This document shows positions 12,454 through 34,206 of a stretch of 38,066 nucleotides of DNA, in pieces. The stretch is from a virus. The stretch lies in the IMG/VR virus record IMGVR_UViG_3300044612_000742, positions 1 to 38,066 of that record, one strand, 5' to 3'. The position numbers were made by a program, and so were the translations under genes. The notes beneath the pieces were generated by a model. That model made no database searches, was not told the origin of the DNA, and saw nothing but the letters and a program-made list of their open reading frames with translations. Within the stretch, counting starts at the first letter, position 1. The number at the start of each line of letters is the position of its first letter.

Positions 12454-13958
12454 ACCGATCGCGCCCCTAGTGATCCTGATGCGGCTGGCCTGATCAAGAA
12501 GTTGTAGGTGTTGAGGTTCGACTTGCTCATGGTGTCGGCACCGACAGTGCCGTTTGGGCCACCAGTATTGGTGGCGTGGACCACCTTTGCCTTCTCCCCG
12601 TCCCACCCATCGAAGAAGGCAATATGGCCGCTTCTGCCACTTGGGGAGTTGACTCGCAGCAAGAGATCTCCGGGCTGAGCATACTGTCGGTACTCGTCGT
12701 AGGAATTCACCCCAGAGACCACCAAAGCCATCTTTCTCTTCCACCCTGCTTTGGCGTTCTCAGCGTGGATGGACGAGGTCGAACCCGGGCCGGGAAGGAC
12801 ATCAGAGGCGCCGCAGTCCTTGTACGCCATGGATACGAAGCCAGAGCAGTCGTAGCCCTTCGGGCCGATGCGATTATTCGGAGAAGAGTAGAACACGCCG
12901 GGGACGGATGCGCGCTGCTTGGCAGCAGCAAGGGTGGCGGCCTGCAGGCTGGTGTTTGAGGGAACAGATACCCCATTGGCTCCAGTGACTGCTGCGTCGG
13001 CTGCTCCTACTCCTCCTGCAGAGTTCCTGTACGGAGACTCTCGCGGTTGAGCTGCATCAAGAAACGAGATTGCAGCGAGGGCATCGTTGTACCCCTTGGT
13101 GGCAGCCTTGAGCTGCTCGGTGGTGTACTCCTCGCTGTAGACCTGACTGTAAGGGACCAGCGCCTCGTAGTCGCCAGTCGATTGGTACGTGTCGAATCCG
13201 TACGCCTGCCTGATCGGGCCGAAGTAGGTGATGATCATCGTCAGGCTGACGATCATCCGGGTAGGGACCATGTTCCTGTCGAACTTGATGAACTGGACCC
13301 GAGCGTTTGTAGGGCGTCCTTGCACAGTCAGGTCTTTGGAGAAGACCACCGTGATGTCCTTGGGATTGGCCATCATGATGCCGTTGTCAGGGATACCTGA
13401 CGACCCGCTTGAGGGGGGCACGTTTCTGACCACCATGTCGAAGTACTTGTAGTCGTCAAGCACCCCCCGGGTGGTACGTGCCGCCGCTTCTATCTGCCTG
13501 TCGAACAGCAGGGTGAAGCTGAAGTTGACGAAACTGGGGGCGACGATCAGGTTGCCGGAGTTGTAGACCGTGTTGAAGGGGTCCAGCGCTGCCTGATCTA
13601 GGTAGCTCACGTAATCCCTGACGATCTCTGTCGGGTTGTACATGAAGTTCAGGCTGGCCAGACTCATTGAGTCCCCAGAGTCTGGTGAGCTTCTCCTGAT
13701 GAACCCCCGGGTGATCTTGAGTCGGCTCTGGTTGGGGGTCAGTCGTCCAGCAGTAGAAGTCGAGAACTTCGGGTTGGTAGGGCCGTTTCTCCGCAGGAAG
13801 TCGTCTACTGCTTGGGAGGCACCTCCCAAGCCTGACTTGAGTTCCCCATAGGCAACCTTGTACCCCAGCGTGTTGGTTACGTCATCCCAGTAAGTCTTCT
13901 CGTATGTCTTGGGGTTAGCGGGAGAGTACTGGTTGACTCTGGTAGGTACGATCGTCAT
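12450..13958 (-). CDS. Tube-baseplate adaptor with C-terminal NlpC/P60 peptidase
   Basis: The 502-aa product starts at ATG 13958 in a TAATG overlap with the tape measure stop. Residues about 78-250 contain LNFMYNPTEIVRDYVSYLD and NFSFTLLFDRQ, the 'F.YNPTE' start and strand pattern of contractile-injection-system tube/adaptor proteins. Residues about 340-490 are an NlpC/P60 domain: Cys371 in YDCSGFVSMAY, His445 in SGHIAFFDG and a third polar residue at His461 (VVHATN). This is the Cys-His-His triad of gamma-D-Glu-diamino-acid endopeptidases that cut peptidoglycan stems. An Ala/Gly linker (about 300-345) joins the two. The fusion puts a wall-cutting enzyme at the tail tip. Function as a peptidase is inferred from intact motifs. 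Confidence 0.85.
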   Translation of the reverse strand: MTIVPTRVNQYSPANPKTYEKTYWDDVTNTLGYKVAYGELKSGLGGASQAVDDFLRRNGPTNPKFSTSTAGRLTPNQSRLKITRGFIRRSSPDSGDSMSLASLNFMYNPTEIVRDYVSYLDQAALDPFNTVYNSGNLIVAPSFVNFSFTLLFDRQIEAAARTTRGVLDDYKYFDMVVRNVPPSSGSSGIPDNGIMMANPKDITVVFSKDLTVQGRPTNARVQFIKFDRNMVPTRMIVSLTMIITYFGPIRQAYGFDTYQSTGDYEALVPYSQVYSEEYTTEQLKAATKGYNDALAAISFLDAAQPRESPYRNSAGGVGAADAAVTGANGVSVPSNTSLQAATLAAAKQRASVPGVFYSSPNNRIGPKGYDCSGFVSMAYKDCGASDVLPGPGSTSSIHAENAKAGWKRKMALVVSGVNSYDEYRQYAQPGDLLLRVNSPSGRSGHIAFFDGWDGEKAKVVHATNTGGPNGTVGADTMSKSNLNTYNFLIRPAASGSLGARSV

Positions 13959-16882
13959 TAGTTGCTCAAGTACTGGTTGTTGGCCATTACGGAGTTGAGG
14001 TGGTCAGCAATCACTTCAGCCACCCTGCGGGCGTCCGCCTCCCCGCCAGCGACGTTCAAGTTGAAGCTGTTGTTGATCACAACTGGGGTAGAGCTGACAT
14101 TTGCGGTCAGTGACCCTTGAGAGACCGGGGCTGCAACTACCGAGGGAACCATGACCTGAGGGCTGTACTTTGCCATTGAGGCAACATCGCCCACAGCAGC
14201 TGAGCGACGGCTGCGAGGGTCGCCGACCATTCCCGCCTGTTTGGCTACTTGATACACAGGATCGACAAACGGAGCGGCGCTTGTGTTCTTCCAGACTGAC
14301 CACGGCCTCCAGTTAGCTCCCCCGTTAGACACATACCACGCTGCCCGAGCATTGGTGAATGGATCGAACAGCTCGTCGTCAGATTTCAGCCCAAGCGCCC
14401 GGCGCCTGTCAGGACCCCCCGCTGCCTTAGTCATGTTGATTTGCCATAGACCGTGGCTATCTTCGCCCTTCGTGTTGTGCGCTCTTGGGTTCCATGTGGA
14501 TTCTGCGCCAGCCACTGCTCCCGCAATAACTAGGTTGTCTCCACTGAATCCTGCAGATCGAGCGGCTCGCAGTGCAGCCAGAATTGCTGGCTGCTGCCCT
14601 GATGCGTCGACACCTCTTACTGAGCCTGAAACACCCATTCTCTGGTAGATGTTGCGAACACTGGCAGGGGCATATGCACCCCCTCCAAAGACCGGGCCGA
14701 GTGCTCCAAATTCACCTGCGTTGATGCCGCCTGAGGAGCGTTGCGAGTAGTCGACGCTTGACTTGACGGGAGACTTCTTTGCCCCACCTGCGCCCAACCA
14801 TCCAGCGATGGCGTCTATCAAGCCCTCACCACCTCCACCAAGAGGTAGGCCGGTGATCTTACCGATAGCTCCAAGAGCTTTGTCTTTCAGGGACCCAATG
14901 TCGAACAGCCCGCCGTCCCCGAACAGCGCTGAGAAGTCTCCGCTGAAGGCTTTCTTGATCCCTCCGAAGACATCCATGAACATGGAAGCCACATTCTGGA
15001 GAGCGTCAAGGCCCGGCACCTGATCGGCAATCCAGCCGCCAGCACCGCCGCCGCCGCCGCCCGGCCCGGCAAGGAAATCTCCAATGATGTTTGCGACCGG
15101 CCCAATGACGGGGACTACGTTGACCACGTCGGGTACGGGGTCGCCGACGGGGACAGTACCCGGCATGCCGACGTGCCACGGCTCATCGTGATTCAGGCCG
15201 CTCTCCAGACCAAACCTTCCGGCGTTGGCTGCGATCCACCCCATCTCTGACTCAGGGCCAAGGTCGGCGGCCAACCCACGACCGTGCATCGACTGCCCCG
15301 GAGGAGCGACCATGCCAACTCCGGCTTCATACAGTCTTCCCTGCAGGGCGCCGTCCCTGAAGCCGGATGTGATCTGCAGCCGGGGGTTGGCGTCCATCAT
15401 GGCTTCCAGCCTGCGGGAGAAGCTCGGGTCCATGTGAGCCGTCGTGGTCCCTCCGTACACTCCGTACCCTGCGGAGGCATCTCCGATCAGTGCCCGACCC
15501 CTTCCTCGACGGCCGCCCCTTCTCCCGCCGGGGTCACCGACCGGTCCTCTACCGCCTCCTCCGAAGAAGAAGGAGGCTAGAGAACTAGCGACGTTGGTCG
15601 ACATCCCCAACCCCCCGTTGACCAACAGGTTGGCCAGCGGGGTCGGAATCCTCGACACGAGGTCTCCTCCAAAGGCCCCCAACACGGTGCCGAGGCCCCT
15701 GTCGATCTGGCCCAGAGCGGCCTCGAAGTACCGATCTGTGCCTTCACGGGTGTTGAAGTCTTCGTAGTTCGACGCAGATCCGAGCATCTGGAACTCTCGC
15801 CGTCCCTGCGCCGTCTGGGTGCGGAGCCGGGACATCGCCAGATCAGGCCCCCGAGCCTCGATGATCGACACGAAGTCGTTCTTACCGGTGTGAGCGGCGC
15901 CGATGACGTACTGCCAGAAGTACTGCTGCATGTACTCCGGGACTCCAGTAGCGGAGAACCAAGCGTCCATGTTCGACCCGGGGAACTGCTGGGTGATGAG
16001 TTCTTCCTTGGTGAACTTCTTGCCTCGCTGAGCGCCGGGTCGCTGGCTCTCGAACCACTTCAGGGTGCTTGTTGCCCATTCCGACAGAGTCTTGGGAATT
16101 GCCCCACTACCGAACCCGCTCATGGCCCCGCCGGTCAGCATGAGTGATCTCTGGTGCGTCTGGGTGCTGCTCAGGAAGTTGCCCTGCATGTTGACGAGAT
16201 CCGTCGCCCCTACTCCCGGGGTCAGGGCCTGCATCTGGCGAACGCCCTCGAAGAACGCCCCACTCCGAGCCGTGCCAAAGTTCCCGTACCCGATCATGGA
16301 GGCTTGGTTGATGGCGCCCAGCACGTTGTTGAGGTCGCCCTGAACCGGAGTGCCTTCTTGCAGTGCCTCGATCAACTGAGTGATGGTCTTGCCACTCAGA
16401 GTAGCTGTCGAACCCAGCGCTGAGGCGATTGTGGGAGCGTTCGCCCGGGCCTCCTCGAACCTGCCGTACGCATACTTGATCGGCGCTTGGATGACTGCCG
16501 ACAGCATCCCAGCAATACTTGAGTCAGCGGTCAAGCTCCGAGTCATGGCAGCAAACGGATTGGCCTCACTACCTCCCGGAGCGCTGAAGTTGAACGGGAT
16601 GCCGCTGGATGTCGTGCCCCCACCACCGCCCCCAGCGTTGTTGAGCGCAGAGGCAGTGGAGTTGGCTCCGGCCTGCACCTGTGAGAAGATCCCGTTCACT
16701 CCCTGCAGGAGCTGCCCCTGCTGGGACGACATCGACTGCAGGGCGTTCTTGAGGCTGTTGAGTTCTGAGGTCACCGCTGCCAGCTGTGAGGCAGTCTTCT
16801 CCAGCCCGGGGACCTTGAACTCAAATCCTGACGCTACAGGGCGAGCCGCTTGGCCCACTCCTGAGATGTCGGGTTCAGCCAC
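13958..16882 (-). CDS. Tape measure protein with M15 peptidase and SLT domains
   Basis: The 974-aa protein starts at GTG 16882 with GGAG about 8 bp upstream. Residues 25-70 are a coiled-coil-like helix and 80-450 are Ala/Gly/Ser-rich helices. Residues about 484-575 form an M15 (VanY-type) peptidase: SGFR 506-509, His533 and Asp540 in SMHGRGLAAD, and His570 in EPWH; these fit the zinc ligands of the family. Residues about 764-870 form an SLT-type transglycosylase with Glu794 in AGAESTWNPRAHN and GLWQIN. Gly-rich hydrophobic stretches lie between them. Position after the chaperone genes and before the adaptor is the standard place. If about 0.15 nm per residue applies, the tail would be near 145 nm, an estimate only. 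Two lytic domains in one tape measure is notable. Confidence 0.9.
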   Translation of the reverse strand: MAEPDISGVGQAARPVASGFEFKVPGLEKTASQLAAVTSELNSLKNALQSMSSQQGQLLQGVNGIFSQVQAGANSTASALNNAGGGGGGTTSSGIPFNFSAPGGSEANPFAAMTRSLTADSSIAGMLSAVIQAPIKYAYGRFEEARANAPTIASALGSTATLSGKTITQLIEALQEGTPVQGDLNNVLGAINQASMIGYGNFGTARSGAFFEGVRQMQALTPGVGATDLVNMQGNFLSSTQTHQRSLMLTGGAMSGFGSGAIPKTLSEWATSTLKWFESQRPGAQRGKKFTKEELITQQFPGSNMDAWFSATGVPEYMQQYFWQYVIGAAHTGKNDFVSIIEARGPDLAMSRLRTQTAQGRREFQMLGSASNYEDFNTREGTDRYFEAALGQIDRGLGTVLGAFGGDLVSRIPTPLANLLVNGGLGMSTNVASSLASFFFGGGGRGPVGDPGGRRGGRRGRGRALIGDASAGYGVYGGTTTAHMDPSFSRRLEAMMDANPRLQITSGFRDGALQGRLYEAGVGMVAPPGQSMHGRGLAADLGPESEMGWIAANAGRFGLESGLNHDEPWHVGMPGTVPVGDPVPDVVNVVPVIGPVANIIGDFLAGPGGGGGGAGGWIADQVPGLDALQNVASMFMDVFGGIKKAFSGDFSALFGDGGLFDIGSLKDKALGAIGKITGLPLGGGGEGLIDAIAGWLGAGGAKKSPVKSSVDYSQRSSGGINAGEFGALGPVFGGGAYAPASVRNIYQRMGVSGSVRGVDASGQQPAILAALRAARSAGFSGDNLVIAGAVAGAESTWNPRAHNTKGEDSHGLWQINMTKAAGGPDRRRALGLKSDDELFDPFTNARAAWYVSNGGANWRPWSVWKNTSAAPFVDPVYQVAKQAGMVGDPRSRRSAAVGDVASMAKYSPQVMVPSVVAAPVSQGSLTANVSSTPVVINNSFNLNVAGGEADARRVAEVIADHLNSVMANNQYLSN

Positions 16883-17051
16883 TCTGCACTCTCCAGTTCA
16901 GCAAGGTGAGCCAGTAGGTCCGTTGCCGGACGGTAAAGGCTCGAAATTCAGTAAGAGACCACCCCGGAAAGCCTCGGGCCAGTGCCTCGTAACTGGCGTA
17001 CAGACTGTTCTCGTCAGGCTCGAAAGAGCTGGCCCCAAGAAACGGGGACCT
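16875..17051 (-). CDS. Frameshift extension of tail assembly chaperone (+1 frame)
   Basis: The stretch between the chaperone stop (17014) and the tape measure start (16882) is open in the +1 frame from 17051 to a TGA at 16875-16877. From Glu at 17021 it encodes 48 residues, with LARGFPGWSLTEFRAFTVRQ then RTYWLTLLNW. This aromatic, 'T.RQR.YW' type tail is like the C-terminal part of many frameshifted tail chaperones. The frame has no ATG, GTG or TTG early enough to start it separately. The frames overlap at 17014-17051. Candidate slip sites are TTT-CGA at 17025-17020, where Phe tRNA could move from TTT to TTC with the rare-type codon CGA in the A site, and CCC-G at 17046-17043. The fusion would be about 334 aa. 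It overlaps the tape measure start by 8 bp. Confidence 0.65.
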   Translation of the reverse strand, partial: RSPFLGASSFEPDENSLYASYEALARGFPGWSLTEFRAFTVRQRTYWLTLLNWRVQSG

Positions 17052-17880
17052 TTACCTCCTCGTGGCAGCTCAGACAGGTCATGTCGAGGCTCAGTGCTAC
17101 GTCAGGCTGGTTGTCGGCCACGGCCTGCAGGAGGCGGTCCCGGTCACCGATCGAGAAGCTGCGGACCAGCTCCTCCGGGTCGCCCGGAGGAAGCCCGTCG
17201 ACCTCAAGGATGATGCGGCTCAGTAGGGCGGTGTTGGCCTGAGCCACCGACTTCTTCTGATCGGCGGAGATCTCGGTGAGGTCATCGCCGACCAGCAGCC
17301 GGTAGGTCACCTTCTTGCCCGACCTGAGAGTGAACTCGTAGACCTGCTGCAGCCCCTCAGGCACGTTGATCTTGAAGTCCTCATTGAGGAGGACGGTGAC
17401 GTCCTGTGTCTCATCGCAGGAGGCGCAGGTGTACCGCAGCTCCTTCTCGTTGCCGAAGGTGGCCTCCACGATCTTCAAGAAGATCTGCAGACGCTCTCCG
17501 ATCAGGAGCGTCCCGAGAATGCGTCGTCGGGCACTCACCGGCTCTTCGCTGAGGTCGAGACTTCCGATCCTGACCACTCCCAAGGCGATCAGGCCGTCGA
17601 AGACAGCTTCCTCGCCCTTGAACCGGGAGAGGTACTCCTCGTCAGAGCCGGTCAGCTCGCGCACCTCGACCTCAGTGTGGGTCACCCCTGCGCTGGAGTA
17701 GCCCCGGGGGAGGGTGAGTGCCGTTGCTGGGGCCTCGGGGAGCACCGGGCGGTCCCCCGCCACCGCCCGGCGCACTTCGGCTTCCGAGGGAATCTCAGCC
17801 CCGAAGGAGTCTGCTTCGAGTTCCTCATACCAAGGGGTGTCGGAGGGGGGCTGCATGGGGTCGAGAGAGATGGGTGGCAC
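17014..17880 (-). CDS. Tail assembly chaperone, T4 gp26/gp51-like, with CxxC pairs
   Basis: This 288-aa protein starts at GTG 17880, with AAAGGAG ending 10 bp upstream; the first inner ATG (17856) lacks this. Residues 1-60 are a Pro-rich acidic arm. The core has EVEVRELTGSDEEYLSRFKG, FDGLIALGVVRIGSLDLSEE, then LLIGERLQIFLKI, a pattern seen in the T4-type baseplate/tail chaperone family of myoviruses. Cys152-x-x-Cys155 (CASC) and Cys269-x-x-Cys272 (CLSC) flank a beta-rich segment and could bind one zinc. The second pair is 16 residues from the end. The gene lies between tube and tape measure, the normal place for the chaperone pair that coats the tape measure before tube assembly. Confidence 0.8.
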   Translation of the reverse strand: MPPISLDPMQPPSDTPWYEELEADSFGAEIPSEAEVRRAVAGDRPVLPEAPATALTLPRGYSSAGVTHTEVEVRELTGSDEEYLSRFKGEEAVFDGLIALGVVRIGSLDLSEEPVSARRRILGTLLIGERLQIFLKIVEATFGNEKELRYTCASCDETQDVTVLLNEDFKINVPEGLQQVYEFTLRSGKKVTYRLLVGDDLTEISADQKKSVAQANTALLSRIILEVDGLPPGDPEELVRSFSIGDRDRLLQAVADNQPDVALSLDMTCLSCHEEVKVPVSWGQLFRA

Positions 17881-17920: not shown

Positions 17921-18484
17921 TCAGCTACCCCGGTAGATGACTTCGAGGCCCTCGTGGTGCAACGTCATGTTGTGGATCAGGACGCCGTTGTCCCCGGCGT
18001 TCAGCCCGCCGAACGCCACGTTTGCTGCCCAAGCGTTGTACGCCTTGTAGGTCAGCACCGTGCCGGAGGGGTTGCCCTGCACTCCAGAGCCTGCGCCCTT
18101 GGTGACGGGGTGGTCCAGCACTCGGATCACAACGTCGAAGCGGAACTCGGCACCGACACCGAGAGAGCCAGCGCCCCACTGGACCGAGAACATCTGCCGA
18201 GCGAGATCCCACATGCCGGGCTTGGTGTAGAACACCCCGCTCGACATGGTGATGGGAGCGAAGTCGGTCTGCCCCGGCAGCTTGTGCGGGTTGGTGTTCC
18301 ACCCGCCCTCTCGGTACGCCGAGACGTCGGTCGACATCGACAGACCCTCCACCGAGGTGAAGCCCATCCGGTTGATGGCCTTGGCGATGTTGCCGTCCCG
18401 GTGGATGAACTCCACTTGGAACTTGAAGTTGCGGATCGGGTCAGCGGTTGCCCGGGTCCGTTCGTTGAGCGTGGGAACTGCCAT
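17921..18484 (-). CDS. Tail tube protein, T4 gp19-like
   Basis: The 187-aa product starts at ATG 18484 with AAGGAG 6 bp upstream, a strong site suited to an abundant protein. It opens with DPIRNFKFQVEFIHRDG, then GFTSVEGLSMSTDVSAYREG and HKLPGQTDFAPITM, which is the well-known gp19/tail tube pattern ('F.V....GF..v.Gl......yreGg......lpG...y..itl..G'). It ends with GDNGVLIHNMTLHHEGLEVI. Length is typical of the family. It follows the sheath gene by 14 bp, as in most contractile phages. Hexamers of this protein build the inner tube through which DNA passes. Confidence 0.95.
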   Translation of the reverse strand: MAVPTLNERTRATADPIRNFKFQVEFIHRDGNIAKAINRMGFTSVEGLSMSTDVSAYREGGWNTNPHKLPGQTDFAPITMSSGVFYTKPGMWDLARQMFSVQWGAGSLGVGAEFRFDVVIRVLDHPVTKGAGSGVQGNPSGTVLTYKAYNAWAANVAFGGLNAGDNGVLIHNMTLHHEGLEVIYRGS

Positions 18485-18498
18485 CTTCTACTCCTTGG

Positions 18499-20097
18499 TC
18501 AGGTCTGGATCTCAGCGGTGCTGCCGCCGTCGTACTGGGACACACGGATCACGACGAACTCAGCGGGGTACTCCAGTGCCACGCCAACCTCCATCCTGAC
18601 CTCTCCGGAGGCGATCACCTGAGGGGTGTTGACCGACTCGTCACAGATGACGTAGTACGCCTCTGCAGCTGAGGTACCCCGGAGACCGCCAGCGGACCAG
18701 ATGGGCCGCAGGATGTTGTCGGCGGTGAACCGCAACCGGGTCCACAGGCGCTCATCGTTGTTCTCGAACACAGCGAAGGAGGAGCCAGACTTGAGGCTCT
18801 CCTTGATGTAGATCAGGGTCCGGCGAGCAGAGACGTACTTGTCGACGCCGAACTTCTTCCGGGTACGGCCACCCATGATGGCGATCCCGGACCCGGGCAC
18901 CGGCCGGATCACGTTGATCTGCTGCTGGGCATTGAGCGTTGCCTGATCTGATTCGCTGAACCGGGCGTCCACGTTCACGGCGTTGGAGATGGACGCAATC
19001 ACCCCGGCCGGTGCCCGGAAGATGCCCTCAGTGGCGTCGGTGCGGGCGTACACGCCAGCCACAGCACCGCCCGGCGGAATCGTGATCGTGCCGCCCTGCA
19101 CAGCAGGGTCGTTGACGACGATCCACGGAGCGTAGGCCGCCACGTACGAGCTGGACTGGCCGGTCTGCACCAGCGGGACTCCCTGCTGGATCTGGCTGGC
19201 GTAGGCGGTGGCAGTCTCGCCAGAACCCCGGGGGGGAGCGGCGTCGTTGATCACGAAGATGTCAGTTCGGTCGCCAAAGGCCGAAGGCTCGATCGAACTC
19301 TGGACGAGAGTGCTTTGAGCGTCGTTGCGTCGGTGGGGGACGATGTTCACCACTACTGGACCCTCGATCTCGGCCGCCCCCTCCGTTGCCGCAGTGCGGA
19401 GGTCTACGTCTGTAGGCAGAGTGCCGTCAGCGCCACCCTGCAACTCCACCGGCCCGGCCGTTGCATCCGGCGTGACGGTGGTGTCGATGCCCGTCACCTC
19501 GATGTAGCGGGACCCGTAGACCTCGTCGTTGACCGCCACGTCGACCCGCTTGGTGCCGGGAACGTCACCCCGCACCGAGAGGTTCTGGAAGCGCTCGATC
19601 TCGACATCGTTACCGATCGAGTCCTTCCGGTACACGATCAGGGTGTAGACCTGTGAGTAGCTCCCCGCTTCGATGTCGACGCTGATGGCGATGCTGAGTT
19701 CTTCACCCCACTCCCCCGGGCTGGCCGCCTTGACCGTGAAGGCGTTACCAGCGTCGCCCTCATTGGGGCCAGAGTCGAACTCGCCCGCCACAGGGTACTC
19801 AGCGGCGGACCCGGTGGTGTCGTTGACCGCACGGGACACGTAGCAGATCCGACCCCCGTTCTGGAAGTAGCTGTAGACGGCGTACGGCAGGTAGCTGACC
19901 GATGCCCCTGCCGCAGGCTCGTAGCCCCCGAACCGGGCGACGTAGTCCGTCCACGAATCGCAGCGGACAGCGGTACGGAACGGGCCGCGAGCGGCACTAC
20001 CAGCGAACAGCGTGACTGAGCTGGCGACGCCGGACTCGTTCGGTCCGGGGAGGACCGTTTCCTCCAAGTAGACGCCGGGGCGGCGGTATGTGGACAT
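18499..20097 (-). CDS. Contractile tail sheath protein
   Basis: The product is 532 aa, start ATG 20097, with AAGGAG 9 bp upstream. The N-terminus MSTYRRPGVYLEE is the hallmark of phage tail sheath proteins. It continues with VTLFAGSAARGPFRTAVRCD and YFQNGGRICYVSRA. The C-terminal domain holds INVIRPVPGSGIAIMGGRTR, KYVSARRTLIYIKESLK and FTADNILRPIWSAGGLRGTS, the conserved sheath core that polymerises around the tube. Residues about 130-260 form a variable outer domain. Length is normal. Sheath followed by tube defines the contractile type of this phage. Confidence 0.96.
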   Translation of the reverse strand: MSTYRRPGVYLEETVLPGPNESGVASSVTLFAGSAARGPFRTAVRCDSWTDYVARFGGYEPAAGASVSYLPYAVYSYFQNGGRICYVSRAVNDTTGSAAEYPVAGEFDSGPNEGDAGNAFTVKAASPGEWGEELSIAISVDIEAGSYSQVYTLIVYRKDSIGNDVEIERFQNLSVRGDVPGTKRVDVAVNDEVYGSRYIEVTGIDTTVTPDATAGPVELQGGADGTLPTDVDLRTAATEGAAEIEGPVVVNIVPHRRNDAQSTLVQSSIEPSAFGDRTDIFVINDAAPPRGSGETATAYASQIQQGVPLVQTGQSSSYVAAYAPWIVVNDPAVQGGTITIPPGGAVAGVYARTDATEGIFRAPAGVIASISNAVNVDARFSESDQATLNAQQQINVIRPVPGSGIAIMGGRTRKKFGVDKYVSARRTLIYIKESLKSGSSFAVFENNDERLWTRLRFTADNILRPIWSAGGLRGTSAAEAYYVICDESVNTPQVIASGEVRMEVGVALEYPAEFVVIRVSQYDGGSTAEIQT

Positions 20098-25414: not shown

Positions 25415-28189
25415 TCAGCTCGTCTTCTTGGTCAGCGCCAGTGTGAAGGCGCCTCGCTGTGTCGAGGCCGCTCCTGTCTTGACCCACGTCTGGGTGCCGG
25501 TGGGGCGGCCTGCAGTCTGGTTCACGGTCAGATCGTAGCCAGCAGCGGCCGAAACGACCGAGCCACCCGTGCTTTGAGTGATGCCGCCGTTACCGCCACT
25601 GGTGAACGCAGCGGGGGCTGCAATCGTGGCGCCGACTGTGTTATTTCCCGTTGGGCCAACTCGCTCGAACCAGAAGCCCGCAACGATCGAGTTCGCCGTC
25701 GGAGTGACGGTGGGGGCCGTCTGGCTGGTCGAGGACGTGTTCGATGCCGACACGCTGATGGCGTTGACGACACCTCCGGCCCCGAGTGTGACGTTGCGGA
25801 AGATCAGCAGCGAAGCTGCCAGCTTGCCCGTCCCAGAGGTGATCGAGATGTTGCCCATCGCCGCCGGGCAGGTGCGGGTGAAGATCCGGGCCTGCCCGTT
25901 GTTGACGTTGGCCACGTAGGAGGCGTTGGTGCTGCCGGGGTTGTCGAAGCCCGCCGGGGTCGGGACGTCTGCCGTAGAGCCGTGGGTCACGATGAGCACC
26001 GCCACGTCCCCGTCCTGCGTGACGATCGGCGTACCGGCCGAGCTGACCGGCAGGGTCAGGGTCTGGTCGTTGGTCCAGAGCGAGGAGGTGCCGACCAGCG
26101 TCGGGGTCAGGTCGGGCGGGGGGAGCGTCGAGGACGGGTCAGCGACCCACCACAGGGTGCCAGCGGGGGTACCTGCCGGAGGCGTACCGCCGGAAGGCAA
26201 CACACCCACGATGGTGCCCGGAGGTCCTGCAGGCCCCTGCTCACCGCGAGTGTTGCCACAGAAGTGCCACGCTGGAGTGGTGGCTGGCGGGCTGATCCCC
26301 CATGCGTAGAGGCTGAGATCCTCGCCGACGACGTACATGTCCCCGGGGCCACCAGTTGTGGGAAGGTTGCTCGTCTGGGTCAGGAACCCACGGATGGTGG
26401 GAACGGAGAACCCTGCCGATCCGGGAGCCGAGACCATGACTCGGACGCCGTTGGTGGTCGGGGGAGAGGCGAACGACACGCTCACGGCGTTCACGCCCTG
26501 AGTGGTCACCGCCGAAACCGGCACCTGCACTCCGGTGGAGGCATTCGTGGCGACGACCAGCAGATCGGAGCTGCTCAGGTTGTGGTTGATCGAGAAGCTC
26601 GTGGCGGAGCCGTTACCCACCAGAGTGATGTGGCTTGCCCCAGCGCCGGACACGCCGATCGGCCCCTGAGGGCCAGCAGGGCCAGCGGCCCCGGCCGCCC
26701 CAGCTGGACCTTGCGTTCCCTGTGGACCTTGCGTTCCCTGTGGACCGGCAGGCCCTGCTGGACCGACGGCCCCAGCGGCCCCTGCTGGACCTTGCGCTCC
26801 TTGCGGCCCTGCAGCACCAGCAGGCCCTGCAGCGCCAGCAGGCCCAGCAGCACCTTGAGGTCCGACAGGCCCAGTGGCGCCCGCAGGACCTTGTGGACCC
26901 TGAATGGCTCCCACGTTCTGCCACGCAGTTCCGCTCCAGACCCACAGGTTGCCTGAGATCATCCAACCGTCACCAACAGTGTTGCCAGTTTCGGGCAGCT
27001 GGGCAGTAGAGGACAGAGTCCCCTTGATCGTGACAGAAGTCCCCGCTGGGCCTGTCGGCCCTGTAGCGCCCGTAGCACCGGCTGCGCCAGCTGCTCCAAC
27101 CGGTCCAGCAGGCCCTGCAGCGCCCGCAGCACCTGCGCTACCAGCGGGGCCTACGGGACCAGTCGGGCCTGCGGGGCCTGTGCCTCCGGGCAGCCCCTGC
27201 ACTCCCTGCGGCCCTTGGATTCCCTGCAAGCCCTGAGGACCGGTCGGCCCCTGCTGGCCCTGAGCGCCTGCCGGGCCAGTCGACCCGGTGTTGCCCTTGT
27301 CGCCCTTCGGGCCAACAGCCCCCGTCATCCCTGTTGCCCCGGTAGCGCCCTGAGGCCCAACTGGCCCGGTGTTACCTGTAACGCCTCGGAGACCTGTAGG
27401 TCCAGCAGGCCCGGTAGGTCCGACCGGACCCGTGGGTCCGGTGCCCCCCTGAGCACCCGTCGGCCCAGCGGGACCGGCCGGACCAGTGACGCCGACGAAG
27501 CCTCGCGGACCAATAGGCCCCGCAGCTCCTGTCGGGCCAGTGGCCCCAGTAGATCCTGCAGGCCCGGTCGGACCAGTGAACCCCCGAACCCCAGTAGGAC
27601 CGGGGACGGTGGAAGCTGGGCCAGTAGGCCCGGTCGGGCCACGGAACGGCCCGGCGTTGACCCAAGCGGTGCCGTCCCACACGATGATGTCCCCGTTGAA
27701 CGTGTACGCCTGCCCCGTCTGCCCGGTGGGCGGCAGCTGGTTGAGGTTGGTCACGTTGCCCACCAGCTGGATGCCGACGCCGGTCGGGCCGCGCTGTCCC
27801 GTGGCGCCCGTCGCACCGACAGGGCCAGTCGGCCCCGCTGGACCGGTCGGGCCGGTGAAGCCTCGTGGGCCAGATGGTCCGACCGCAGACGACATTGGCC
27901 CGGTGGGGCCAGTCGCCCCAGTGAACCCCCGAAGGCCGGTGGCGCCCGTCGCTCCGGTAGGACCTGCCACTCCTTGCGGCCCTACAGGGCCAGTAGGCCC
28001 AGCGGGAATGGCGTCTACCTCCGCCTTGGTAGCGTAGGTGTCCTCGGCCTCCGTAGAGGTCAGGAAGGCGTCGTGGTCGTACTCTTCCTCGTGAGCCTGA
28101 ACCGCCTCTGAACCGTCACCAAGAGGGGAGCGCAGCCCGACCTTGACCTTGGTCGACTTCTTGCCGCCTTGGCTCCATACGTTTGGCAT
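25415..28189 (-). CDS. Collagen-like tail fibre protein
   Basis: This 924-aa protein starts at ATG 28189 (ATGA overlap, AGGAG 5 bp upstream). Residues 1-62 are a charged N-terminal arm ending in [20 protein letters not shown], probably a trimer or attachment segment. Gly-X-Y collagen-like repeats rich in GPTG, GPAG and GAAG fill residues about 64-137, 184-384, 430-511 and 649-659. They are interrupted by three related non-collagen modules (about 140-182, 386-429, 597-647), each with 'LPxTGxxGDxY....L.vW.GtaW.nvG'. The C-terminal 250 residues are a beta-sandwich head ([36 protein letters not shown]). Collagen-like fibres form trimers. It probably forms a long receptor-binding fibre. No lysine hydroxylation or similar need be assumed. 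Confidence 0.88.
26657..28000 (-). repeat. Collagen-like GXY coding repeats
   Basis: Codons for residues 64 to 511 of the fibre are mainly Gly-Pro-Thr, Gly-Pro-Ala, Gly-Ala-Ala and Gly-Pro-Gln triplets, with two inserted globular modules. The first half prefers Gly-Pro-Thr, the second Gly-Ala-Ala and Gly-Pro-Gln, so the two halves seem to have expanded separately. The DNA shows many near-identical 9- and 18-bp units. Confidence 0.88.
26706..26746. repeat. Exact tandem 18-bp repeat inside the fibre gene
   Basis: The unit GGACCTTGCGTTCCCTGT occurs twice in direct succession (26706-26723 and 26724-26741), followed by GGACC, the start of a third. It encodes GTQGPQ on the - strand. The copies are identical, so they are likely recent and prone to in-frame gain or loss of six residues. 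Confidence 0.9.
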
Positions 28190-30855: not shown

Positions 30856-33800
30856 TCAAGATCCTGTTGTCCAGAAGAGATCGACCGGAGTTTCGACGGT
30901 CCCATCGAACCATGTGATCTGCCCGATAGGAGTCTCTGGTCCGTTGAGGTTCTTTCGGGTCAACACAACAGGCTGGAGAACGTACTTTCTTGGTGTAGGC
31001 AGTTGGGGCAGTACTGCAACTACTTGAGTGCTGGCCAACCAGTCGGGGCCGTAAGCCTGAGGTTCTGGTACTACAGCAAAGCTTACAACGGCACTGAGAA
31101 CCACTCCAGAACCGAATAGCGGAGTAGGCAATGACGAGTTGGCAGAGACAGTGCTGGCCGACACAATCCATTGGCCAGTGGCAGCAGGCGCCGGAATGGC
31201 AGCAGACGCAACCACGACTGCAGGTACTACGTTGACCTTCCGAGTGGGGGTAGGGATTGAGGCGCTTACCTGTAGCCCGGAAGGAACCAGCCGAGACCCG
31301 GAAATCAGGATTGGAACGGGAATCTGAGATGTGGCTACCGCTGGCAGCGGCTGCGCTGTGCCTTGAGCCGAGACGAACGGAGCCGGGATACCTGCAGTAG
31401 TCCCAACAGCGCTCGGGGTGGCTGCCCCGCCACTGATCACTGATGGGGCTGGAACAGACGTGCCCGCTGCAACTATCGAGGCAGTGATCTGCATCGAGAG
31501 GGCCGGAGTGGGAGCGGACGAGACGACGGCGACAACTCCAGCCGCAATTCCCGATCCCCAGAGCGGAGTGGGAACGGCGGCTACTGCCGCTACAGCAGAT
31601 GGCCCAACCATCGTTCCCGTTACCCAGCTCGGCTCCGGCACCGAGACAGCCGCCCCCACCGAAGTGGGCAGCGTTCCTGCTCCCCACGATGGGGCTGGGA
31701 TTGTTGCCGTCGCTGCTACTACCGAAGGAGTGAGTGAGATTCCTGCAGAAACTCCCGGCGCAGGAATCGCAGCCGTGGCCGTAACGACAGCGGGCGCTAG
31801 TCCAGCTCCCCACAGTGACGCTGGGATAGCAGTAACTGCAGCGACCACAGAAGCAGGCGCAGTTGCCCCGGAGCTGGTCGTGGGAGAGGGGATGGCAGCA
31901 ATTGCTGCAACTGCAGCGGGAACTGTCCCAGAACCCCACGTAGGTGCCGTGATGCTGCTGGTGGCCGCAACTGCAGTAGGCAGTGGTCCGGCGCCCCACC
32001 CGGGTGCTGGAATAGTGCTAATTGAGGCAACTACAGAAACAGATGCAGTTGCTCCAGAGCTGACTGCAGGAGCAGAAATGGTAGTAACTGCGGTAACGGA
32101 ACTCGGGACAGCCTGCTGTCCCCACCCGGGTGCTGGTATAGCACTAACTGCTGCAACCGCCGTAGGCAGTGTCCCAGAATTGATCAGGGGCTGAAGGATG
32201 GCCGTAACTGCTGCGACTGCAGTAGGTAGGGTTCCAGATCCCCACGTAGGTGCTGGGATGCTACTGGTGGCTGCGACCGACTCCGGCGAGATGATGACAT
32301 CTGAGAACGCATCGAGCCAGCTGAAGAAGTTGGCGATGCCGGTGGCGTTAGTCTTTGCCCCTTCGTGATCGACGCCAGCCAACTCGAAGTAGGTGAGCTT
32401 CTCAGAAGAGATGACGCCCGGTGTCGGTGGCCCGGTGACGTACCCGACGTTCGTCAAGGCCGTGACCAGCTGGTCGTAGTGTGCGGCCTTGGTCGTCAGG
32501 TCGTCCGCTGTGCCGAACACGATGCCGATCGGGAAGTCAGGGACGACAGCCGCCTTGCCACGGTATGGCTCGTTGATCGTTGGCGAGCCTGATGCGGGGT
32601 TGATGTACTTGTCGACATCAAGCTCGCCGTAGACGGTGGTGTCGATAGAAGCCTCGGAGATAGCGTGACCAGACCGAGAGACCAGATACCTGCGTCCGAG
32701 GCTGATGACGATCCGGTTGGAACCGTTGGGCGTGAGCGTCGGGTTGACAGCGTTCTGGGGCGATACGACGGGGGCAAAGAGGAACATGCCCTTGATCGTG
32801 TAGCTGTTGTTGAGCGTCAGTGAGTTGCCGGAAGCGGTGATCGTGTCACCGTTCTGGCCAAAGTCGAATGGGTACGACGTGTTCGGGGCACCGTTGCTTC
32901 TGCCGACATGCGCTGGACGCTGGTGCCGGTTCGGGTTGAAGATGTCCCCAGCTGGCCATGAGCCGGGGTATATGCCGGAGTACGTCGTCGTGTCGCCCTT
33001 GGTGAAGGCCACGAACTGGGCGATCGAGGTGCCCGCAGAGTGGCCCGAGATGATCGTGTTGTCGGTGTCGATGTTGTAGAGGTTGGACTCAAGCTTGTCC
33101 CTGCGGAAGAAGCGCAGCGCAACCTTCACATCGTGAATGCCGAGCGGGAACGACGCCTCGTTGCCGTTCGACAACGTCGCCTCTGCGAACGCTCCCCCAG
33201 CAATGGCTTCGGTCAAGCGGTAGTCGACCGAGACGACAGCGATACCTCGGTCCAGCAGCTGGTTGACAAGGGACGATGGGATTTCGCTGCGGCTGCCTTG
33301 GGAGAAGAAGCCGCCATGAATCCACATGAACAGCGGCCAACCGGTCTCCGGCGCAGTACCGTTCGGGAGCCAGAGCGAGAGATTTCGACCGCCCGGCGCA
33401 GAGTTGGGGAGATCCTTGAACGTGAGCGCAGTGCCGTTCGTGTAGGCAATGCTGATCGGAGGCGTGGATGTCGGGGTCGGGATCGACGTGGCGGCGTTGA
33501 CTGGAGCCACAGTCGGAGTGGGATTGACGAGCTGCCGAGCGGTGACCAGTAGCTGCGGCCTGCGGGCCGGGGTGGAGTCGTCGTGTGAGAACGTGCGGTA
33601 GCGAGAAGTGGACGAGCCGGTAGGCCCGATCATCACGTTCAGGTACTCGGTGCTCTGGTTGATGGACGCCAGCGCCGCCACCACCGCAGCGGAGATGTTC
33701 GGGGAGGTGTTGGTGGCGTCAGCGGCGGCGCCAACGTGGGTCCACGCCACCTGAGCCGTGTCCCCCGAACCAGCACCGATGGATGCCCACAGAGTGTCAG

Positions 33801-34206
33801 GACGACGGGCACCAGAGCTGGAGAGTTGCGCTGCTGGCCCCTGCTCCACACGGATGGCCGTGGTAGCGGTGCCCCCAGCACCATCCAACGTCGTGAGCAC
33901 GAGGCGCACGTCCGTGATCGTCGTGCGGTCGATGGACGCCGGAATCTTGAACCGGAAGCCGGTCCAAGCGCCGGTGCTGGAGTTGGTTGACGTACCCGTC
34001 CACTGCCACGTCTGCGTTGACGTGAACGCAGCAGAATTGTAGGTGGCGTCGTCAGCCCCGGTCTCCTGCAAGATCGGCGGCTGCACGATGTCCGCATACT
34101 CGCCCCACGACGGTGCGGGGATGCTGACCGAAGCCTGTACGGCAGCAGGGGCGACCGTCCCCGGACTACCGGAGCCGCTCTGAGGGGCGAGCAGCGTCAG
34201 GAGCAT
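30856..34206 (-). CDS. Virion-linked alpha/beta-hydrolase (esterase-like) in a repeat array
   Basis: This 1116-aa protein starts at ATG 34206. Residues 40-225 look like a DNRLRE-type or related binding domain (FRFKIPASIDRTTITDVRLV ... PARRPQLLVTARQ). Residues about 255-640 are an alpha/beta-hydrolase: oxyanion-hole HGG at 297-299 (MWIHGGFFSQG), VVSVDYR at 324-330, nucleophile Ser390 in GHSAG, likely Asp568 in FGTADD, and His614 in GVDHEG. Order and spacing fit the carboxylesterase/acetyl-esterase class with the HGG motif. Residues about 645-1060 hold about 20 degenerate copies of 'AVAAVxxIPAPxWGxG', with two more copies before the enzyme domain (near 27 and 240). The C-terminus has a Trp/Pro-rich end. 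It likely removes acyl groups from a host surface polymer. Activity is not proven. Confidence 0.8.
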   Translation of the reverse strand: MLLTLLAPQSGSGSPGTVAPAAVQASVSIPAPSWGEYADIVQPPILQETGADDATYNSAAFTSTQTWQWTGTSTNSSTGAWTGFRFKIPASIDRTTITDVRLVLTTLDGAGGTATTAIRVEQGPAAQLSSSGARRPDTLWASIGAGSGDTAQVAWTHVGAAADATNTSPNISAAVVAALASINQSTEYLNVMIGPTGSSTSRYRTFSHDDSTPARRPQLLVTARQLVNPTPTVAPVNAATSIPTPTSTPPISIAYTNGTALTFKDLPNSAPGGRNLSLWLPNGTAPETGWPLFMWIHGGFFSQGSRSEIPSSLVNQLLDRGIAVVSVDYRLTEAIAGGAFAEATLSNGNEASFPLGIHDVKVALRFFRRDKLESNLYNIDTDNTIISGHSAGTSIAQFVAFTKGDTTTYSGIYPGSWPAGDIFNPNRHQRPAHVGRSNGAPNTSYPFDFGQNGDTITASGNSLTLNNSYTIKGMFLFAPVVSPQNAVNPTLTPNGSNRIVISLGRRYLVSRSGHAISEASIDTTVYGELDVDKYINPASGSPTINEPYRGKAAVVPDFPIGIVFGTADDLTTKAAHYDQLVTALTNVGYVTGPPTPGVISSEKLTYFELAGVDHEGAKTNATGIANFFSWLDAFSDVIISPESVAATSSIPAPTWGSGTLPTAVAAVTAILQPLINSGTLPTAVAAVSAIPAPGWGQQAVPSSVTAVTTISAPAVSSGATASVSVVASISTIPAPGWGAGPLPTAVAATSSITAPTWGSGTVPAAVAAIAAIPSPTTSSGATAPASVVAAVTAIPASLWGAGLAPAVVTATAAIPAPGVSAGISLTPSVVAATATIPAPSWGAGTLPTSVGAAVSVPEPSWVTGTMVGPSAVAAVAAVPTPLWGSGIAAGVVAVVSSAPTPALSMQITASIVAAGTSVPAPSVISGGAATPSAVGTTAGIPAPFVSAQGTAQPLPAVATSQIPVPILISGSRLVPSGLQVSASIPTPTRKVNVVPAVVVASAAIPAPAATGQWIVSASTVSANSSLPTPLFGSGVVLSAVVSFAVVPEPQAYGPDWLASTQVVAVLPQLPTPRKYVLQPVVLTRKNLNGPETPIGQITWFDGTVETPVDLFWTTGS
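31030..32274 (-). repeat. About 20 degenerate IPAPxWG repeats
   Basis: Residues about 645-1060 of the esterase-like protein repeat a unit of about 20-23 residues with the core 'xAVAAVxxIPAPxWGxG'. Examples: SSIPAPTWGSG, SAIPAPGWGQQ, STIPAPGWGAG, ATIPAPSWGAG, TSVPAPSVISG. Later copies drift (IPVPIL, IPTPTR, LPTPLF). The alternating hydrophobic pattern ending in Pro-rich turns suggests a stacked or extended stalk. The DNA copies share only part of their bases, so the array is old compared with the other repeats in this window. Confidence 0.85.

Follow-up and report, generated by a model that had tools for sequence, protein, structure and literature searches.

We identified, in a viral contig of 38,066 bases (IMG/VR virus record IMGVR_UViG_3300044612_000742, positions 1 to 38,066, hereafter the window), a gp26-type, G-like tail assembly chaperone gene that very probably encodes two products: a 288-residue 0-frame protein and, through a +1 slip at UUU_C, a GT-like fusion. 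No protein or reporter data are available for this locus; slippage itself and its rate are inferred.

In the proposed mechanism, with UUU in the P site and CGA in the A site, a fraction of the ribosomes would slip forward by one base. The tRNA-Phe (anticodon GAA) would thereby shift from UUU to UUC, with perfect pairing, and translation would continue in the +1 frame, giving a GT-like fusion with a 48-residue helical C-terminal module. If lambda gpG/gpGT is taken as a guide, the tape measure protein would be coated by the abundant short form, and tail tube subunits would be recruited, via the module, by the less frequent fusion.

Organization of the junction

The genes concerned are on the minus strand, in the order tail sheath (18499..20097; Pfam and PHROG tail sheath), tail tube (17921..18484; Phage_T4_gp19, E=6e-23), gp26-like gene (17014..17880), module and large tape measure gene with SLT lysozyme-like domains (13958..16882). 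The gp26-like gene starts with GTG, with AAAGGAG upstream, and its 3′ end reads CAG CTC TTT CGA GCC TGA. The stop TGA (17014..17016) is two codons past the slip codon. The putative slip site TTT_CGA occupies 17020..17025, with the P-site TTT at 17025-17023 and the A-site CGA at 17022-17020, the C at 17022 being skipped. The entire open +1-frame stretch covers 16875..17051. Within it, the module (16875..17021) encodes the 48 residues EPDENSLYASYEALARGFPGWSLTEFRAFTVRQRTYWLTLLNWRVQSG and ends with a TGA at 16877-16875. A 131-bp gap (17013-16883) separates the gp26-like ORF from the GTG at 16882 that starts the tape measure gene, whose first 8 bp are shared with the +1 module. The +1 frame contains no ATG, GTG or TTG until 60 nt past the 0-frame stop.

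A previous sequence-only reading of this DNA had described such a junction: an ORF end followed by a 131-bp gap, a +1 frame open from 17051 without any usable start codon, and TTT-CGA at 17025-17020. These coordinates proved correct to the base. Re-reading of the sequence also showed that the +1 frame ends 8 bp within the tape measure gene and encodes TVRQRTYW, as had been claimed. Elsewhere, the window carries a collagen-like tail fibre gene (25415-28189) and a gene for a large protein, part of which is esterase-like (30856-34206).

Identity of the 0-frame protein and of the module

The gp26-like protein matches the Pfam family PF12322 (T4_baseplate) with E=8.3e-11 and 42.4 bits (cut-off 24.5), and the same family is matched by 21 of 21 representatives of its relatives. 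Weak matches to Phage_TAC_7 and to a PHROG tail assembly chaperone are found at residues ~54-85. A chaperone fold is suggested, though weakly, by the AlphaFold model (pLDDT 88), whose best PDB match is the HK97 tail assembly chaperone 2ob9 (Foldseek probability 0.98, E 0.11, Z 6.8, residues 178-262); a second match concerns the N-terminal half and YqbN (3klu, Z 6.6, residues 37-144). These scores, obtained with a predicted model, are modest (Z below 8, Foldseek E 0.1) but agree with the gene order. The chaperone role remains an inference.

The module alone is predicted to form a three-helix mini-domain (pLDDT 88.8). In profile comparisons, window-type +1 modules match cyanophage gp51-like modules. 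Matches to PF20546 (DUF6760) and PF06528 (Phage_P2_GpE) are restricted to a few members (best E 0.039 and 0.019, respectively), and the window module itself matches neither profile. A sequence search of the PDB for relatives returned none, and a second look at the PDB with the 48-residue module returned weak, unrelated helices only.

Conservation of the +1 frame

The closest annotated phages are the Streptomyces phages LuckySocke, Alone3 and GiJojo (~30% identity). A second search step added pSt2308 and BRock, and profile searches yielded many IMG/VR contigs as well as 12 bacterial loci. No matches were obtained with the plain P0001 query against viral contigs, with the A1 query against genome contigs, or in a distant DNA search seeded with L044. 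The resulting sample comprises 100 distinct related junctions, cultured Streptomyces phages and bacterial genomes included. A strict regular expression missed seven of the module-bearing junctions, which were read by eye.

The sequence-only reading had proposed a hidden +1 product of the tail chaperone, to be judged by alignment with related phages, and had named a closed second frame or a separate start codon with a ribosome site as grounds for refutation. The alignment supports the proposal, in the absence of mass spectrometry or reporter data. A homologous module is found open in the +1 frame at 98 of the 100 junctions, in proteins ~28-43% identical to that of the window, and the slip codon is kept within each class of junctions (see below). 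The second frame is closed in none of the 98, and the window has no separate start with a ribosome site. The module consensus is LYxEYExLxxxYPGWxLxEIKxLxxRERxxW. Past the 0-frame stop, mismatches at +1-frame codon positions 1, 2 and 3 number 859, 498 and 2233 (163 non-independent pairs). As judged from these alignments, substitutions beyond the stop follow the pattern of a coding +1 frame, and the +1 module is conserved more than by chance. A long ORF lies downstream of the junction in 89 of the 98 relatives.

Alternatively, the module might be translated on its own, as a small protein, from an internal start or by ribosomes that re-initiate past the 0-frame stop. The annotations of LuckySocke, GiJojo and BRock have separate small genes at this place, and some relatives have a GTG or an ATG upstream in the +1 frame with an SD-like motif. 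However, no ATG, GTG or TTG precedes the module in the +1 ORF of 42 of the 98 distinct junctions (the window and 41 others), and the start annotated in GiJojo is a TTG within the conserved module. A separate protein would also leave the invariant UUU_C or CUU_Y unexplained. We consider this possibility very unlikely and retain the frameshifted fusion.

The putative slip site

A slip codon is observed near the 0-frame stop in all 98 junctions, and two classes are distinguished: TTT_C, found in 50 of 50 distinct junctions of the window's class, and CTT_YTA, found in 48 of 48 in a sister class. With either UUU_C or CUU_YUA, the P-site tRNA can move forward by one base and pair again, on UUY. The slip codon of the UUU class is fixed at the end of an LF pair while the 0-frame stop is 6, 9, 12 or 21 nt away; a fixed slip codon with a moving stop favours slippage on UUU_C over slippage on the stop codon. 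A prfB-like slip on the 0-frame stop was rejected, because the preceding codon varies (GCC, CTC, CCC, TTC, GGT, CAA) and mostly cannot re-pair. The choice of TTT-CGA as slip site, made earlier from the window alone, is thus supported.

Codon usage gives a further measure of this invariance. Outside the slip codon, TTT is almost never used in genes of high GC content. Elsewhere in the window gp26-like gene, Phe is encoded by 0 TTT and 8 TTC; over the 24 ORFs of the window, TTT represents 31 of 357 Phe codons, and in-frame TTT-CGN occurs at the slip site only. Under each gene's own Phe codon use, the log10 P of finding TTT in all 50 junctions is -25.8, kinship being ignored. The window fulfils the UUU_CGN motif, with an in-frame UUU followed by CGN and a +1 frame open beyond. 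Of the 50 UUU-class junctions, 36 have CGN in the A site and the others CTN, CAR or CCG; because of this variation, a rare-codon pause is not universal. A second TTTC is present inside the window +1 module.

As regards stimulatory elements, a search for RNA structure gave a mean z near 0 both downstream and upstream of the site, and structure across the site in class I (z -1.0) was judged unconvincing. In the UUU class, AGGAGG-like sequences are over-represented at 33-36 nt ahead of the slip codon, with 10 perfect copies in 50 junctions versus 1 in 200 controls; the AGGAGG-like stretch of the window is at 17056-17066. This element was not retained as a Shine-Dalgarno stimulator, since it coincides with a conserved pair of Glu and Val codons and is too distant for prfB-like action.

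The direction of the shift had been left as +1 or -2, which lead to the identical frame, and Mu-type phages are reported to use -2, a point in favour of the latter. Codon re-pairing, the only basis for judgement here, favours +1 and disfavours -2. A -2 move would place tRNA-Phe on UCU (from CTC TTT) or UGU (from CTG TTT), a poor match, whereas +1 gives UUC. At CUU_Y, +1 leads to UUY, a re-pairing like that of the release factor 2 CUU_U, whereas -2 leads to CAC or CCC. We give a -2 shift hardly any credence, and +1 is inferred as the direction. Finally, an assembly error or the decay of an in-frame fusion, conceivable for one metagenome contig that might carry an indel, is excluded by the relatives, which show the identical frame offset in 98 distinct junctions, cultured Streptomyces phages and bacterial genomes among them.

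Arrangements in +1 and -1 among more distant kin

More distant kin were collected with Streptococcus phage GXN1, Bacillus SP-15 and Listeria LIS04 as seeds. In the SP-15-type set, all 24 distinct junctions carry the module in the +1 frame, and 18 of them have TTT_C. The six others are L292, L295, L297, L298, L301 and L283. The first four form a small clade having AAT CCC AGT, a sequence that suggests CCC_A as a +1 site, and L301 could slip at UUU_U.

In KVP40/cyanophage-type loci (L188, L189, L191-L270, L303-L308), gp26 ends at T_TTT_TTN and the gp51-like module follows in the -1 frame. All 61 distinct junctions show this module frame and carry T_TTT_TTN; the background frequency of the motif in these genes is 20 in 12,200 codon pairs. 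From these patterns, a -1 frameshift joining gp26 and gp51 is likely in such phages and appears unannotated. In KVP40, an ATG overlaps the stop (TAATG), so that a separate start is also possible there; no ATG is found at the stop in 54 of the 61 junctions. A 595-kb phage (L187) likewise shows what looks like a -1 arrangement. The two exceptions among the 100 junctions described above are burkholderial loci, in both of which the same T9 run, similar to GGTTTTTTTTTGCCGAGCGC, precedes a DUF6760-like module in the -1 frame (L098:3686-3696 and L099:3714-3722). Ribosomal and transcript slippage are equally possible in their case.

Pairwise profile comparison of the modules gave a probability of 80% (E 1e-5) for the +1 group versus the cyanophages, 95% for the cyanophages versus the SP-15 type and 90% for the +1 group versus the burkholderial loci. 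In a 123-row tree, the window falls among UUU-type sequences. The direction labels cluster, and the four classes require at least 6 changes. Because of long branches and an uncertain root, the ancestral frameshift direction cannot be stated.

T4 gp26 and gp51

T4 is named in reviews as lacking a G-T frameshift (PMC5009743). Both T4 gp26 and gp51 (L190:6803-8229) belong to PF12322 (E 9e-64 and 4e-52), like the window gene, gp51 matching over residues 1-201. The rest of gp51, its C-terminal tail, matches the cyanophage module family. In addition, a 2010 comparison described cyanophage gp51 as lacking the first 200 residues (PMC3037559). The simplest reading, inferred from homology, would be that T4 duplicated the gene, gp26 being the short form without module and gp51 the in-frame fused form. 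Two paralogues, with the module fused in frame, would explain why T4 appears as an exception. Unlike the window, T4 has two separate genes and no frameshift.

Overall, we find it likely, though less firmly so than the +1 slip in the window, that the two modules of one ancient tail chaperone (gp26 body and gp51-like tail) have been kept together by recoding, by a mechanism that changed between lineages. Two large groups would use +1, at UUU_C or CUU_Y; the KVP40/cyanophage type would use -1 at T_TTT_TTN, and the burkholderial tail-like loci -1 at T9; T4 would rely on duplication and in-frame fusion. If this is true, T4 gp26 plays G and gp51 plays GT. These two proteins, which carry a baseplate hub annotation, would then have a testable explanation as chaperones of the tape measure. 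With one pair of modules linked in three ways (+1, apparent -1, duplication), these phages also form a natural series in which the switching of recoding direction can be studied.

Comparison with known systems

According to the authors of PRFect, few cases of programmed +1 frameshifting in phages have been published, and a general motif is lacking. In the literature that could be searched, from which most subscription journals were absent, we found no report of widespread +1 sites with an invariant codon in the gp26/gp51 family, nor of the CUU_YUA alternative or of homologues shifting in opposite directions. The ~100 distinct junctions define a +1 motif, UUU_C or CUU_Y, whose place in the protein is constant, and are enough for predictor training and for the repair of annotations in which the second module is wrongly placed or absent. 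Among public annotations, LuckySocke 91, GiJojo 83, BRock gp135 and SP15_046 have the module beginning at a false internal codon, and the annotation of LIS04 leaves it out (loci L002:4833-4988, L003:4776-4973, L181:3402-3584, L185:3321-3440 and L186).

Several +1 shifts in tail chaperones have been described. In the HF1-like haloviruses HF2, Serpecor1 and Hardycor2, a +1 shift at TTT-CGC has been proposed (PMC7230728), with the same direction, UUU_CGN site and gene position as in the window; the HF2 junction reads GAG AAG TTT CGC AGA TAG. These are, however, archaeal viruses, and the first ORF of HF2 is far shorter (156 residues). A +1 tail chaperone frameshift has also been proposed for HSTV-2 (PMC5009743), and +1 slippage is annotated in the tail chaperone of Bacillus phage Moonbeam (PMC4299906). 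Moonbeam shares TTT_C with the window, in the form of TTT_CAA near the stop at the annotated position, but its gene sizes differ (140-residue first product, 352-residue fusion region). These precedents make the mechanism known in kind. Outside phages, influenza PA-X and the plant amalgaviruses use UUU_CGN for +1 shifting with the same re-pairing of tRNA-Phe from UUU to UUC (cited in PMC7230728), although they are eukaryotic RNA viruses with unrelated genes.

With the lambda gpG/gpGT-type and P2 E/E′ systems (reviewed in PMC5009743), the window shares two overlapping genes immediately before the tape measure gene and, as predicted here, a short product accompanied by a less frequent version extended at its C terminus. 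A weak profile match links the P2 E′ tail (IFHWPPSELYPMSLTELITWREKAL) with the window-type module, which it resembles. The difference lies in the shift, which is -1 at an X_XXY_YYZ heptamer in the lambda type and +1 at UUU_C in the window. Three features of the G/GT type are present at sequence level: a position between tail tube and tape measure, an overlapping, start-less and conserved second ORF, and a slippery sequence in the overlap. The assignment of the window pair as a tail chaperone fusion of the lambda G/GT type made by +1 shifting is well supported.
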